A stretch of DNA of 39,659 nt, from NCBI GenBank assembly GCA_002381615.1, contig DFWY01000101.1:18910-58568 (forward strand). Direction: 5' to 3'. The first letter of the stretch is position 1. Each line of letters starts with the position of its first letter. The translations under genes were made by a program, and so were the position numbers. Positions 13,360-20,675 of this stretch are shown here, one piece after another. This DNA is from Polaromonas sp. UBA4122. GTDB lineage: Bacteria > Pseudomonadota > Gammaproteobacteria > Burkholderiales > Burkholderiaceae_C. The notes beneath the pieces are model-generated. The model ran no database searches. It was not told the DNA's origin and worked only from the letters and a program-made list of their open reading frames with translations.

Positions 13360-14298
13360 ATGTCCCCAGTAGCACCCTCCATGGAAGACCGCGACGGCAA
13401 AATCTGGATGGACGGCCAGATGGTCGACTGGCGTGACGCCAAAATTCACGTGCTGAGCCACACCCTGCATTACGGCTGTGGCGCTTTTGAAGGCGTGCGC
13501 GCCTACAAAACGGCCGAGGGCACGGCTATTTTTCGGCTGGAAGAGCACACCGAGCGTCTGTTCAACAGCGCCAAAATCCTGCGCATGAAGATTCCTTTCA
13601 GCAAGGAAGAGGTCAACGAAGCCCAGAAGGCCGTGGTGCGCGAGAACCATCTGGAGAGCTGCTACGTGCGCCCGCTCGCCTGGATCGGCTCGGAAAAACT
13701 CGGCGTCAGCCCCAAAGGCAACAAGATTCACCTGATGGTGGCGGCCTGGGCCTGGGGCGCTTACCTGGGCGAGGAAGGCATGAAGCGCGGCATCCGCGTC
13801 AAGATTTCCAGCTTCACGCGCCACCACGTCAACATCACCATGACGCAGGCCAAGGCGGTGAGCAACTACACCAACTCCATTCTGGCCAATATGGAAGCGC
13901 TGGATGACGGCTACGACGAAGCCTTGCTGCTCGACGCATCGGGCTTTGTCAGCGAAGGGTCTGGCGAAAACATTTTTGTGGTCAAGGGCGGCGTGGTCTA
14001 TACGCCCGATCTGTCGGCTGGCGCGCTCAACGGCATCACGCGCAACACCGTCCTGCACATCTGCCAAGACCTGGGGTTGGAATTGGTGCAAAAGCGCATC
14101 ACGCGCGATGAGGTGTACATCGCCGACGAAGCTTTCTTCACCGGCACGGCCGCTGAGGTCACGCCAATCCGCGAGCTGGATCGCATCGAGATTGGCGCTG
14201 GCTCACGCGGGCCGATCACCGAAAAAATCCAGAGCGCATACTTTGATATTGTGAACGGGCGCAACCCGAAATACGCCTCCTGGCTGAGCAAGGTTTAA
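13360..14298 (+). CDS. ilvE: branched-chain amino acid aminotransferase
   Basis: Fold-type IV PLP aminotransferase of 312 residues that makes leucine, isoleucine and valine from their 2-oxo acids using glutamate. Motifs seen: HTLHYGCGAFEGVRAY near the N-terminus, the PLP lysine Lys165 in MTQAKAVSNY, and GSGENIFVV with ALNGITRNTV for cofactor phosphate binding. FFTGTAAEVTPI near the C-terminus separates it from D-amino acid transaminase and lyase relatives. ATG 13360 gives the family N-terminus. Confidence 0.95.
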   Translation: MSPVAPSMEDRDGKIWMDGQMVDWRDAKIHVLSHTLHYGCGAFEGVRAYKTAEGTAIFRLEEHTERLFNSAKILRMKIPFSKEEVNEAQKAVVRENHLESCYVRPLAWIGSEKLGVSPKGNKIHLMVAAWAWGAYLGEEGMKRGIRVKISSFTRHHVNITMTQAKAVSNYTNSILANMEALDDGYDEALLLDASGFVSEGSGENIFVVKGGVVYTPDLSAGALNGITRNTVLHICQDLGLELVQKRITRDEVYIADEAFFTGTAAEVTPIRELDRIEIGAGSRGPITEKIQSAYFDIVNGRNPKYASWLSKV

Positions 14299-14303
14299 AT
14301 ATG

Positions 14304-14395
14304 GCCCCCACGCTTGTCACTTCGTGTATTGCGCTGCCCCCCGAGGGGCTGCAGTCGCCTTGGGACGGCCCGGCGGCGCTGCACGCAACTTCTTA
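14304..14395 (+). repeat. GC-rich dispersed intergenic repeat with hairpin
   Basis: Begins GCCCCCACGCTTGTCACTTC and contains the hairpin GCCCC-CCGA-GGGGC. It matches, to my recollection, a very common Comamonadaceae intergenic element. Its first 40 bases are 36/40 identical to the reverse complement of 19281-19320, inside a histidine kinase gene. It separates ilvE from the zinc-finger gene and might act as a terminator. Confidence 0.7.
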
Positions 14396-14403
14396 AGGAA
14401 TTT

Positions 14404-14610
14404 ATGAGTACATCATTCACCGTTGAGCTATTAGCCTCCGACCTCAACCCCCAAGGCGGCGTGTTTTGCCCCAACCCCAAAGCCGACATGAAGCTGTGGA
14501 ACAGCCACCCCAAGGTCTACCTGGATGTGGCGCACACCGGCCAAGCCAAATGCCCTTATTGCGGCACGCTGTACAAGCTCAAGGACGGCGAACATTTTCA
14601 TGGGCATTAA
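14404..14610 (+). CDS. zinc-finger domain-containing protein (zf-CHCC)
   Basis: A 68-residue protein whose Cys22, His35, Cys50 and Cys53 form the CHCC zinc-binding pattern (CPNP ... H ... CPYCGTLYKL). This fold is shared with the mitochondrial complex I accessory subunit NDUFS6. Bacterial members are widespread in proteobacteria and lack an assigned role. The start ATG at 14404 follows an AAGGAA-like ribosome binding site at 14395-14400. A repeat element separates it from ilvE upstream and a second repeat pair follows its stop. Confidence 0.85.
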   Translation: MSTSFTVELLASDLNPQGGVFCPNPKADMKLWNSHPKVYLDVAHTGQAKCPYCGTLYKLKDGEHFHGH

Positions 14611-14611
14611 A

Positions 14612-14700
14612 GAATCGGGGTCAGGGCCCAATTTCGTTTGATGCGGCTCACGCCGGATGAAGCATCGTCCTGAATCGGGATCCAGCCCAAATTCTTTAAT
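14612..14700 (+). repeat. two diverged direct repeats 60 bp apart
   Basis: GAATCGGGGTCAGGGCCCAA at 14612 and GAATCGGGATCCAGCCCAAA at 14672 are clearly related units of about 29 bases spaced exactly 60 bases apart. They resemble the GGGGTCAG...CCCAATTT palindromic repeats scattered in betaproteobacterial genomes. The second unit lies inside the first codons of the heptosyltransferase gene. Confidence 0.65.
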
Positions 14701-15688
14701 CATCGCGCCGCAATGGATAGGCGACGCGGTGATGACCGAGCCCTTGCTGCGCCGGCTGCACGCGCGTGGCGAACGCATTACAGTAGGGGCCTTGCCGTGG
14801 GTGGCGCCGGTGTACCGCGCCATGCCGCAAGTGGCCGATGTCATTGAATTTCCGTTTGCGCATGGCGGACTGCAATTCAAGGCGCGTCGCGCAATAGCCC
14901 AGCGCATCGAAGGCAAGTTTGACAACGCCTACGTACTCCCCAACTCGCTGAAAAGCGCGCTGCTGCCGTTTTTGGCCAGTATTCCAAACCGCATCGGCTA
15001 CCTCGGCGAGGCGCGCGTGGGCTTGCTCACGCACCGGCTCAAAAACCCCAAAAACAAGCCGCCCATGGTGGCGTTTTATTCCGCCCTCAGCGGCGAGCAT
15101 GATCTGGAAAACGACCGGCCGCAGCTAAAAATGGACGCAGCGGAGATCGAGCAAACGCTGCTTGGCTTAGGCTTGCAGCAGGGCGCATACGTCGTGTTTG
15201 CGCCCGGTGCCGAATACGGCCCAGCCAAGCGCTGGCCCGCCCGTTATTTTTCAGAACTGGCCGCCAGGCTCGACCTGCCGGTGGTGCTGCTCGGCTCGGG
15301 CAAGGAGGCCGCGCTGTGCGACGAGATTGCAGCGCCTGTCAACGTGGCGCTGGCAGGAAAATGCCTCAACCTGGCCGGAAAAACCTCGCTGCCTCAAGCA
15401 CTGTGCCTGATTGCCGCCGGCAAAAGCACGGTCAGCAATGACTCCGGTTTGATGCATGTGGCCGCCGCGTTCGGCGTGCCGCAGGTGGCCCTTTTTGGCT
15501 CGTCGAGTCCCTTGCACACACCGCCCTTAAACGAGCAGGCCACCGTGCTGTGGCTGAAAACCGACCCCTCCTACCAGCCGCCGCTGGATTGCGCGCCGTG
15601 CTTTGCGCGCGAATGCCCGCTCGGCCATACCCGCTGCCTCAATGACATCAGTGCTGCGCGGGTGTTGCGGGTTTTGCAGGCGCTTTAG
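14657..15688 (+). CDS. waaF: ADP-heptose:LPS heptosyltransferase II
   Basis: GT9-family glycosyltransferase, 343 residues, that adds the second heptose to the lipopolysaccharide inner core. Recognisable motifs are LIIAPQWIGDAVMTEPL at the N-terminus, FAPGAEYGPAKRWP in the middle, and SNDSGLMHVAAAFGVPQVALFG in the ADP-heptose-binding half; a Cys-rich CAPCFARECPLG segment lies near the C-terminus. The family normally starts within a few residues of LIIAP. Here the only usable start is the ATG at 14657, which adds about 13 residues (MKHRPESGSSPNS) encoded mostly by an intergenic repeat unit. No other LPS genes are adjacent. Confidence 0.93.
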   Translation: MKHRPESGSSPNSLIIAPQWIGDAVMTEPLLRRLHARGERITVGALPWVAPVYRAMPQVADVIEFPFAHGGLQFKARRAIAQRIEGKFDNAYVLPNSLKSALLPFLASIPNRIGYLGEARVGLLTHRLKNPKNKPPMVAFYSALSGEHDLENDRPQLKMDAAEIEQTLLGLGLQQGAYVVFAPGAEYGPAKRWPARYFSELAARLDLPVVLLGSGKEAALCDEIAAPVNVALAGKCLNLAGKTSLPQALCLIAAGKSTVSNDSGLMHVAAAFGVPQVALFGSSSPLHTPPLNEQATVLWLKTDPSYQPPLDCAPCFARECPLGHTRCLNDISAARVLRVLQAL

Positions 15689-18705: not shown

Positions 18706-19947
18706 TTACGATTTTTGATCTGCAGCCGGCAATTCGACAATAAAGGTGGCGCCGCCGCCGGGGCGGGCTTCGCAGCGGACGGTGCCGCCATGGCGCTGGC
18801 TGATGGATTTGACCAGGGCCAGCCCCAAGCCGACGCCGCCCTCACGCTCGCTGGCGCCCGGCAAGCGGTAAAACGGTTGAAAAATGCGCTCACGCTGCCC
18901 GGCTGGGACGCCCGGGCCGCGGTCATGCACCTTGATCACGGCCAGTTGCTTCATGCCCACATGAATTTGCGCCAGCTCCAGGCTGATGTCGCCGCTGCTG
19001 TAGCGCCTGGCGTTTTCCAGCAGGTTGCGGATCAGCCGGCGCAGCAGCCGCGGAGAGCCTTGCACCATCAGGCTGTGGCCAGTACTGGCGATGCCCAGCT
19101 CGGCTTGCAGTTCGGCATTGACGCGCGAGCATTCCTCGGCGGCCAGCCCGGTCAGGTCCAGCGTTTCAAAAGGCTCGGCGTCAGCCTGCCGGGCATCGAG
19201 CCGGCTGGCCAGCAGAATTTCATCGATCAACTGGTCGAGCTCGTTGATACTCCGCAAAATTTCAACTCGCCGGTTAATAGCGGGGGCCAGCGCAGTACGC
19301 GAAGCGACAAGCGTGGGGGCATCGTTCTCCATCAGTTCAAGCCCCATGCGAATGCGGGCCAGCGGCGAGCGCAACTCGTGCGAGGCATTGGCCAGCAGGG
19401 ATTTGTGCGATTCCATCAGGGTCTCAATCCGCTCGGCAGCGTGGTTGAAACGCCTGGCCAGAAAAGCCACCTCATCGTGGCCCTCGGCATTGATACGCGC
19501 AGACAGGTCGCCGGCACCCCAGCGTTCCACGCCTCGTTGCAGGGCCTCCAGCCGCAGCGTCAGGCGACGCATGACGGGGTAAGCCCCCAGCGCCACGGCG
19601 AACCCCACAAGACCCAGCATCCAGCCAAAACTGAAACCAAACGGCGGCCGCATCCAGGGATTGCCGGGGGGACGTTTGGGCCGCGGCAGCAGCAGGTTCA
19701 GGGTCTGGCCGTCTTGGGTGACAACATCAAATTCCAGGTCCTCGCCCATCTGGCGGTCGGGCCTGGTTTGCGCCATACCGATGATTTCGCCCGTGGCATT
19801 GTGAATCAGTACTTCACGTATCGGCAGTTGCGGCGGGTCGCTGGTCAGCCGCCACGCAGCACCCACCAGAAAAGTCAGCACCATCACGGTCGCCACCACA
19901 GCGAGCCAGATGCGGACGTACAGGTGCGAGGTAAAGCGTGCCCACAT
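18706..19947 (-). CDS. sensor histidine kinase (CpxA/RstB-like)
   Basis: Inner-membrane sensor kinase of 413 residues. It has TM1 at ~11-31, a periplasmic segment of ~95 residues, TM2 at ~128-146, HAMP, a DHp domain with phospho-acceptor His190 (SHELRSPL), and an ATPase domain with NLLENARRYS, DRGPGVP and GVGLGLALVK. It is encoded 8 bases after its response regulator. Residues ~210-222 (APTLVASRTALAP), in the turn between the two DHp helices, are encoded by a fragment of a dispersed intergenic repeat. They make this turn about a dozen residues longer than in enterobacterial relatives. The signal sensed is unknown. Confidence 0.92.
   Translation of the reverse strand: MWARFTSHLYVRIWLAVVATVMVLTFLVGAAWRLTSDPPQLPIREVLIHNATGEIIGMAQTRPDRQMGEDLEFDVVTQDGQTLNLLLPRPKRPPGNPWMRPPFGFSFGWMLGLVGFAVALGAYPVMRRLTLRLEALQRGVERWGAGDLSARINAEGHDEVAFLARRFNHAAERIETLMESHKSLLANASHELRSPLARIRMGLELMENDAPTLVASRTALAPAINRRVEILRSINELDQLIDEILLASRLDARQADAEPFETLDLTGLAAEECSRVNAELQAELGIASTGHSLMVQGSPRLLRRLIRNLLENARRYSSGDISLELAQIHVGMKQLAVIKVHDRGPGVPAGQRERIFQPFYRLPGASEREGGVGLGLALVKSISQRHGGTVRCEARPGGGATFIVELPAADQKS
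19281..19320 (-). repeat. intergenic-type repeat fragment inside the kinase gene
   Basis: Read on the minus strand, these 40 bases are identical at 36 of 40 positions to 14304-14343, the start of a GC-rich intergenic repeat. Here the fragment is in frame and translated as APTLVASRTALAP within the kinase dimerisation domain. Confidence 0.8.
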
Positions 19948-19955
19948 AAAGAGAG

Positions 19956-20675
19956 TCAGTCTTGCTGCTTCGCAAAAACATAGCCCACACCACGCACCGT
20001 GAGAATGCGTTTGGGGTCTTTGGCATCCAGCTCAATGGCGCTGCGGATGCGGCCCATGTGCACGTCAATCGAGCGGTCAAACGCTTCAAGCTCGCGCCCG
20101 CGCACGGCTTCCATGATCTGGTCGCGGGTGAGCACCCGGCCCGCGCGCTCGGCCAGTGTCACCAGCAGGTCAAACTGGTACGAGGTTAGCTCGCAGGGGT
20201 TGCCAGAGACGGACACGGTGCGCGCATCGCGATCGATTTCGAGCGAGCCAAAGCGCATGACCTTGTGGGTACCTCCTGCTGCGTCGCCGCCACCGGCTTC
20301 ACCGCCGCGGCGCAGTACCGCGCGAATGCGTGCCAACAGTTCGCGCGGCTCAAAGGGTTTGGGCAGGTAATCGTCCGCGCCAATTTCCAGACCCACGATG
20401 CGGTCCATCGGGTCGCCCTTGGCGGTGAGCATCAGCACGGCGGGGCGCGCGGAGTCGCTGGCCTGGCCCTTGATGCGGCGGCAGATTTCCAGGCCATCCA
20501 TGTCGGGCAGCATCAGGTCCAAAATGACCAGATCGGGGGGACTGGCCTCCAACGCAGCGAGGCCGCTGGCGCCATCGCCAGCGTGAGTGAAGCCATAACC
20601 TGACTGGCGCAGATATTCACCCACCATGGCGGCCAGGCGGGCGTCGTCTTCGATCATTAAAAGCTGTTGGGTCAT
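19956..20675 (-). CDS. OmpR-family response regulator
   Basis: DNA-binding regulator of 239 residues. The receiver domain (1-~120) has the acidic pair Glu9/Asp10, phospho-acceptor Asp53 (VILDLMLPDMDG) and Lys in LPKPFEPRELL. A Gly-rich linker (GGEAGGGDAAGG) joins a winged-helix domain ending RILTVRGVGYVFAKQQD. It is encoded just upstream of its sensor kinase, most like the CpxR/RstA group. A GTAAA-N6-GTAAA element about 90 bases before the start is a candidate autoregulatory site. Confidence 0.94.
   Translation of the reverse strand: MTQQLLMIEDDARLAAMVGEYLRQSGYGFTHAGDGASGLAALEASPPDLVILDLMLPDMDGLEICRRIKGQASDSARPAVLMLTAKGDPMDRIVGLEIGADDYLPKPFEPRELLARIRAVLRRGGEAGGGDAAGGTHKVMRFGSLEIDRDARTVSVSGNPCELTSYQFDLLVTLAERAGRVLTRDQIMEAVRGRELEAFDRSIDVHMGRIRSAIELDAKDPKRILTVRGVGYVFAKQQD

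Follow-up and report, generated by a model that had tools for sequence, protein, structure and literature searches.

The 40 bases at positions 19281..19320 (minus strand) of the window, the 39,659-nucleotide stretch of Polaromonas sp. UBA4122 DNA analyzed here, are very probably the left half of a ~80-bp non-autonomous mobile element that inserted in frame at the turn between the two DHp helices of a sensor histidine kinase and now contributes to a translated, flexible loop. That a dispersed repeat was captured at this turn, as put forward in a first-pass annotation of the window, is strongly supported by the data presented below, and dozens of other copies of the repeat are found in the same genome.

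A truncated repeat copy at the turn of an RstB-like kinase

The gene harboring the insert (18706..19947, minus strand) is an open reading frame of 413 aa with Pfam HAMP (residues 125-175), HisKA (183-252) and HATPase_c (298-409) domains. The top NCBIfam model for its product is RstB (NF007898), with a score of 190.7 bits versus a cut-off of 478; since the score lies below the cut-off, the protein is termed here an RstB-like sensor histidine kinase and is named no further. It shares the HAMP-HisKA-HATPase_c architecture of RstB/CpxA-type kinases, including a HisKA match, and their conserved catalytic residues, but differs from them in presenting 12 extra residues at the DHp turn and an RstB score far under the cut-off. 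The phospho-acceptor His190 (codon at 19378..19380, minus strand) is invariant in an alignment of 32 sequences, and the gene of the presumed partner, an OmpR-family response regulator of 239 aa identified by its Pfam Response_reg and Trans_reg_C domains, is located at 19956..20675 on the minus strand.

A direct count bears out that 36 of the 40 bases at 19281-19320 match, in reverse orientation, the beginning of the 14304 repeat, and the two arms (14304-14343 and 19281-19320; 40 nt, 90% complementary) constitute the longest among the inverted pairs listed for the window. Identity falls away beyond these 40 nt, first to 36/45 and then to 37/50. Because the similarity ends at 40 nt, the kinase retains no more than the left half of an element whose length elsewhere is ~80 bp, and the kinase copy, which presents 97.5% identity with the element consensus over 40 nt, is best read from its sequence as a truncated relic of a dispersed element. 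The copy is read in frame +1 of the element and covers residues 210-223 of the kinase, with the 40 bases encoding APTLVASRTALAP at residues 210-222 plus one base of residue 223.

The location of these residues between the DHp helices, past His190, which had been proposed from the sequence, agrees with an AlphaFold2 monomer model of the window kinase (mean pLDDT 72.7), in which helices 159-207 and 220-255 are connected by a turn at residues 208-219 (19291..19326, minus strand) and pLDDT drops below 50 at residues 214-216. In the equivalent model of a kinase carrying a full-length element (locus L104; mean pLDDT 71.2), the helices span residues 159-208 and 232-264, with pLDDT below 50 at residues 210-230. 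Both models are of insert-bearing monomers and of moderate confidence, and in both the element-coded residues are predicted to lie mainly within the turn, with the two DHp helices kept. The turn had also been judged by eye to be about 12 residues longer than that of E. coli RstB, a figure that is exact when compared with most congeners, since the segment between the RIRM and ELDQLI motifs comprises 38 residues in the window kinase versus 26 in these. The phmmer alignment with CpxA (4BIW) distributes the difference into an 8-residue gap at the turn and two shorter gaps. The seven non-Polaromonas orthologs read (L141-L143, L146 and L148-L150, leaving out the more distant L151-L172) all present a short turn without the repeat residues.

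The kinase turn across Polaromonas

Of 87 Polaromonas genomes, 81 were found to encode the kinase, and its turn could be read in 80 of them, a count that omits G023 (where the contig ends), an additional locus each in G020 and G009, and rows from outside Polaromonas. The RIRM-to-ELDQLI segment spans 25-28 residues in 62 of these 80 kinases and 34-36 residues in three ambiguous cases (G028, G008 and G096), whereas in the remaining 15 it spans 37-102 residues and contains the element peptide (+11 to +76 residues), in all of them in the same orientation and frame. The reading frame is continuous through the insert in all 15 carriers. In one of them, Polaromonas sp. P2-4 (G080, C1:2985513-2987234, L200), the kinase gene is broken further downstream, 3' of the insert, a break that may be a sequencing error given that the assembly is rated 83% complete. 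Two carriers present tandem elements at the turn, with two units in G018 and two units plus a partial third in G100, all in frame, while G099 retains only the first four residues of the element followed by a linker that is also found in G105 and G027. When the 14 carriers other than G099 were compared with the element consensus, all aligned at the turn; their best pieces cover 24-90 columns and present 69-98% identity.

The point of insertion is not the same in all carriers, and at least four distinct points can be told apart. The element follows directly after ELM, ELL or EML in G065, G080, G018, G093, G105, G027 and G099; it lies three residues past ELM in the window's genome (G000), G020, G077, G016, G067 and G017; and it follows ELMEDVV in G100 and an otherwise ordinary ELMSPGTPSPQSI in G036. 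In a quick tree inferred from the 80 kinase genes with the turn left out, the presence of the insert needs 12-13 changes, and carriers interleave with non-carriers inside one well-supported clade. A single clade of the 15 carriers was rejected on this quick tree (AU p = 2e-10), which leaves room for allele exchange, and so were the directly-after-ELM/ELL/EML class and the ELM+3 class when each was constrained to form one clade. Since insertion points and subtypes differ and carriers are scattered, more than one insertion event at this turn is likely on the sequence evidence. The turn acts as if it were a permissive site, repeatedly filled, extended and trimmed.

An unlikely, though serious, alternative is that most carriers descend from one ancient insertion at the turn, inherited thereafter and frequently lost or exchanged through recombination between species. 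Distant carriers (G000, G020/G077, G067 and G017) do share ELM[ED]x[EDQ] followed by (A/T)P(T/A)LVASRT, the common downstream linker of G105, G027 and G099 fits the same history, and the alternation of carriers and non-carriers within one supported clade is what local allele exchange would give. Inserts in other genes are also heritable: the AmgK insert is common to G000 and G065, and the SulP insert to G000, G065 (where it is in tandem) and G071, so insertions can be inherited and persist through speciation. A single origin is nonetheless difficult to reconcile with the different insertion points, with the ordinary SPGTPSPQ that G036 retains before the element and that looks like the mark of a separate event, with the subtypes that differ at the turn (AATTTTCC, GAACTTGC and GGCCTTGC arms), and with the 62 non-carriers that have a turn of ordinary length.

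The element between and within genes

The full-length copy of the element in the window (14304..14383, plus strand) is located between the stop codon of ilvE, as named by NCBIfam, at 14298 and the ATG of the following small ORF at 14404, and contains a hairpin, CCCCCCGAGGGG, and a 3' stem, TGCAG/CTGCA. The same arrangement can be recognized across copies, with a rather constant left half that contains a CCCCC..GGGGG hairpin and a right half that forms a stem whose two arms covary. Stem arms with at least four complementary bases were identified in 33 of 45 own copies, versus ~6.5 after swapping partners, where each 3' arm is borrowed from a copy whose 5' arm differs. For the copies of the family search (loci L274-L302, a few of which are from Polaromonas), the corresponding figure is 23 of 30, versus ~4.8 after swapping. 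RNAalifold did not detect the covarying 3' stem on a MAFFT alignment of 47 copies because the variable arms misalign, and the arms were then compared directly. A search of positions 13900-14800 against Rfam returned two matches only, with E-values of 5.3 and 8.1, far under the gathering score.

A search of the window's genome with a 93-nt query identified at least 46 clear matches, including the query copy (40 of 95 candidates scored; two 15-nt matches among the 48 rows were left out), and 58 distinct copies were gathered from the loci of this genome. The dispersion inferred in the first-pass annotation is thus confirmed, and it extends beyond this genome, with a 72-nt consensus matching 84 of 87 Polaromonas genomes and 244 of 299 sampled genomes of the family, in 126 of 141 sampled genera; two records were matched in a search of plasmids. 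Tandem copies are frequent, with a spacing of ~84 bp. The bases upstream of copies approximate AATATG: of 57 copies read, 38 present T at -2 and 37 present G at -1. A general target-site duplication was rejected, given that end repeats of at least five bases were present in 6 of 58 copies versus 3.8 after shuffling. Of the two 12-nt cases, one corresponds to a tandem unit and the other, an oddity, surrounds the AmgK copy described below.

The repeat had been described as intergenic. This holds for the copies located between genes, but copies are also found in frame inside no fewer than 12 additional genes of this genome. In order to assess phase, both flanks of the 58 copies were judged separately, each side being required to present an open, coding-like frame of 70 codons or more; the in-gene set was hence defined on the fetched loci by ORF length and codon-position G+C, irrespective of annotation. 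Coding-like frames were in the same phase on both flanks for 13 copies, with one mismatch, where agreement in one third of cases would be expected if phase were free. The lone mismatch concerns the second of the copies located at the TolQ end, for which the downstream frame is apparently that of the next gene. The C-terminal tail of TolQ itself is made up of two tandem element units (C124:22175-22328, L240). A complementary scan for one open frame running through the element, which is blind to frameshifted copies (a condition that the two-flank test does not impose), identified 14 copies, seven in frame +1 and seven in frame -2, and added PriA, the sequence of which is partly masked. Both frames are free of stops in every one of the 48 full copies, irrespective of location, and openness is hence no evidence by itself; frames +2 and -1, however, are open in 45 and 47 of the 48 and yet are not used. 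The bias towards +1 and -2 could partly stem from the insertion target, such as an in-phase ATG. Extending the scan to 59 loci of G000, G065 and G071 yielded 17 rows, four of them repeating G000 loci and 13 at nine new loci, all in +1 or -2.

The 13 genes with in-frame copies in the window's genome encode FdhD, IcmF, acetoacetate-CoA ligase, MetX, biotin carboxylase, a SulP transporter, AmgK, an M16 peptidase, a fused hydantoinase with two copies, PriA, FtsY, RecJ (named by eye) and the kinase described here; several of the NCBIfam names, such as AmgK and acetoacetate-CoA ligase, correspond to scores below the model cut-off. An 823-aa frame at locus L004 (+3) was discarded as a false antisense frame, the RecJ-like gene at that locus reading the element in -2. 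The hydantoinase (C96, L227) is a fused frame of 1288 aa that contains two copies in opposite orientations, both in frame, and a second sensor kinase of this genome, recognized by eye (L215:138-1724), presents a copy in frame -2 near its N terminus, where the start codon is uncertain. Alignments to solved structures pick up on both sides of the insert for IcmF (insert 286-322, 37 aa versus 1 residue in the structure), biotin carboxylase (314-350, 37 aa versus 1), FtsY (290-323, 34 aa versus 3), the AmgK-like kinase (228-258, 31 aa versus 8) and MetX (328-369, 42 aa versus 4), while FdhD presents a longer unaligned stretch (206-257, 52 aa versus 8) after which the alignment resumes. The AmgK copy follows directly after HRDFMPRNLM, which we take to be the catalytic loop of the fold, in both G000 (C64:17905, L236) and G065 (L357), and the G000 copy is flanked on both sides by a direct repeat of 12 bp, CGAAACCTGATG, that partly matches the 3' stem arm of the element itself.

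FtsY, the SRP receptor, was matched in 83 of 87 genomes. For 64 of these 83, the match consists of two pieces without the insert that are typically 6 bases apart (e.g. G071), so the site is empty in these genomes, and in 15 genomes, including G000, a single piece spans the site, several of these pieces being shorter than the query and possibly gapped. G002, which belongs to these 15, presents an element copy within FtsY at C63:9022-9093, and the FtsY copy of G000 is located on C53 (L006).

The distribution among host proteins bears on the function that may be ascribed to the insert. It is improbable that the insert is adaptive, with a longer DHp turn retuning dimer packing, cis/trans autophosphorylation or phosphatase activity and drawing repeated hits for that reason. 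That 15 of 80 species carry it at the same turn, and that G018 and G100 hold in-frame tandem units, would fit such selection, but the presence of the same element within many unrelated enzymes points to tolerance over selection specific to the kinase, and the models predict intact flanking helices and a disordered insert. Even less credible is the removal of the element from RNA, or its skipping by the ribosome, so that it is absent from the protein. A compact element with covarying stem arms and the interruption of core-function proteins (FtsY, IcmF, PriA) could be read in this manner, but all 13 insertions within one gene are in frame, which neither removal nor skipping would need, and the window relic is in frame without having the 3' stem. 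Chance or convergent similarity of two G+C-rich stretches can be set aside, since ~3e-8 such 40-nt pairs are expected in the window from base composition and the congeners refute it, all 14 compared carriers aligning with the consensus at the turn.

Comparable known elements and probable effect on host proteins

The closest parallel by description is provided by the Rickettsia palindromic elements (RPE), which occur in frame within unrelated genes and add a conserved peptide that is seemingly tolerated (PMC10969869, PMC3733652). The Polaromonas element shares with RPE its dispersed location, both between genes and in frame in unrelated ORFs, the preservation of the host protein around the insert, and a palindromic secondary structure, with arms that covary in the Polaromonas element. 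It differs from RPE in its length (~80 bp versus ~150 bp), in its hosts, which are high-G+C betaproteobacteria in most sampled genera of a family rather than Rickettsia, and in the use of two reading frames, one per orientation, with in-frame tandem copies. Based on this likeness of description, and not on sequence comparison to the ten described RPE families, we term the element RPE-like rather than RPE.

Repetitive extragenic palindromes (REP) have also been reported wholly inside ORFs in several species, including Thauera, with many of them in replication and repair genes (PMC3733652), and the Polaromonas element likewise hits PriA and the RecJ-like gene. Those REP, likened to the element by description only, are 20-40 bp long, unlike the element, and carry a GTAG or CGTC tag, and neither Polaromonas nor Acidovorax is mentioned in that work. 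The element also resembles REP/REPIN sequences associated with RAYT transposases in being a short hairpin element without clear target duplication. Of 87 Polaromonas genomes, 84 present a match to PF01797 (Y1 transposase), and 67 of the 87 present a single one, typically as a frame of ~240 aa (L244-L273), yet no element match was found in the ~1 kb flanks of this gene at 18 loci, which does not favor a RAYT as the mobilizer. G076 and G022 encode the PF01797 gene and present no element match. No transposase could be tied to the element.

The element may correspond to BRE, an element of ~90 bp, rich in G+C, that has been described in Bordetella and in Comamonadaceae including Polaromonas JS666, with tandem copies and some copies within coding sequences (Hot et al. 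2011, PMC3110155). The likeness, which was drawn by description only, comprises the length (~80-90 bp), G+C richness, tandem arrangement and copies within coding sequences. Copy numbers appear to differ: 29 BRE are reported in JS666 and 4 in CJ2 (PMC3110155), versus at least 36 element matches (E <= 0.001, partial ones counted; 40 of 59 candidates scored) in the genome taken as JS666 (G032) and at least 30 (same threshold, partial ones counted; 40 of 48 candidates scored) in that taken as CJ2 (G024). The section of the BRE report consulted presents no analysis of reading frames. A text search with four 12-16-nt words of the element returned unrelated papers only, and in the literature on BRE, Polaromonas repeats and Burkholderiales elements, covered mostly by titles and abstracts and with subscription journals mostly outside, no work treats the frames or host proteins of the element.

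Taken as a mobile element that is very probably non-autonomous, the repeat would insert at many sites, tending to follow AATATG and without generating a target duplication. Insertions in genes would survive only where phase is kept and the peptide falls in a tolerant turn, and surviving insertions may later be duplicated or trimmed by deletion, the copy in the window having presumably been reduced in this way to a short relic. From the conservation of phase, we infer that the insert is translated. Most likely, the protein accommodates it structurally and it is nearly neutral, tuning the kinase modestly at most; an effect on kinase signaling, such as the altered dimerization or phosphatase control suggested in the first-pass annotation, is possible, and the wide range of other host proteins speaks for tolerance in the first place. 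A broader reading, to be held only tentatively, is that of a family-wide betaproteobacterial element with a sequence shaped to provide one bland, flexible-peptide frame per orientation (+1, APTLVASRTALPPEGAELAWGGPA; -2, AGPPQASSAPSGGSAVREATSVGA). Its in-frame insertions would make it a naturally occurring linker-insertion mutagen: it would continually invade turns on the surface of conserved proteins, among them the hinge of a signaling helix bundle, and then grow in tandem or be trimmed.

Small mobile DNA that enters ordinary enzymes in frame is known chiefly from Rickettsia, and a 2024 review deems a wider role of such elements in protein evolution conceivable (PMC10969869). Here, in-frame insertion is widespread in one genus, affects proteins of core function and provides pairs with and without the insert, among 80 species, at one turn. 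These natural pairs make it possible to test the translation and tolerance of the insert, as well as the role of DHp-turn length in a histidine kinase.
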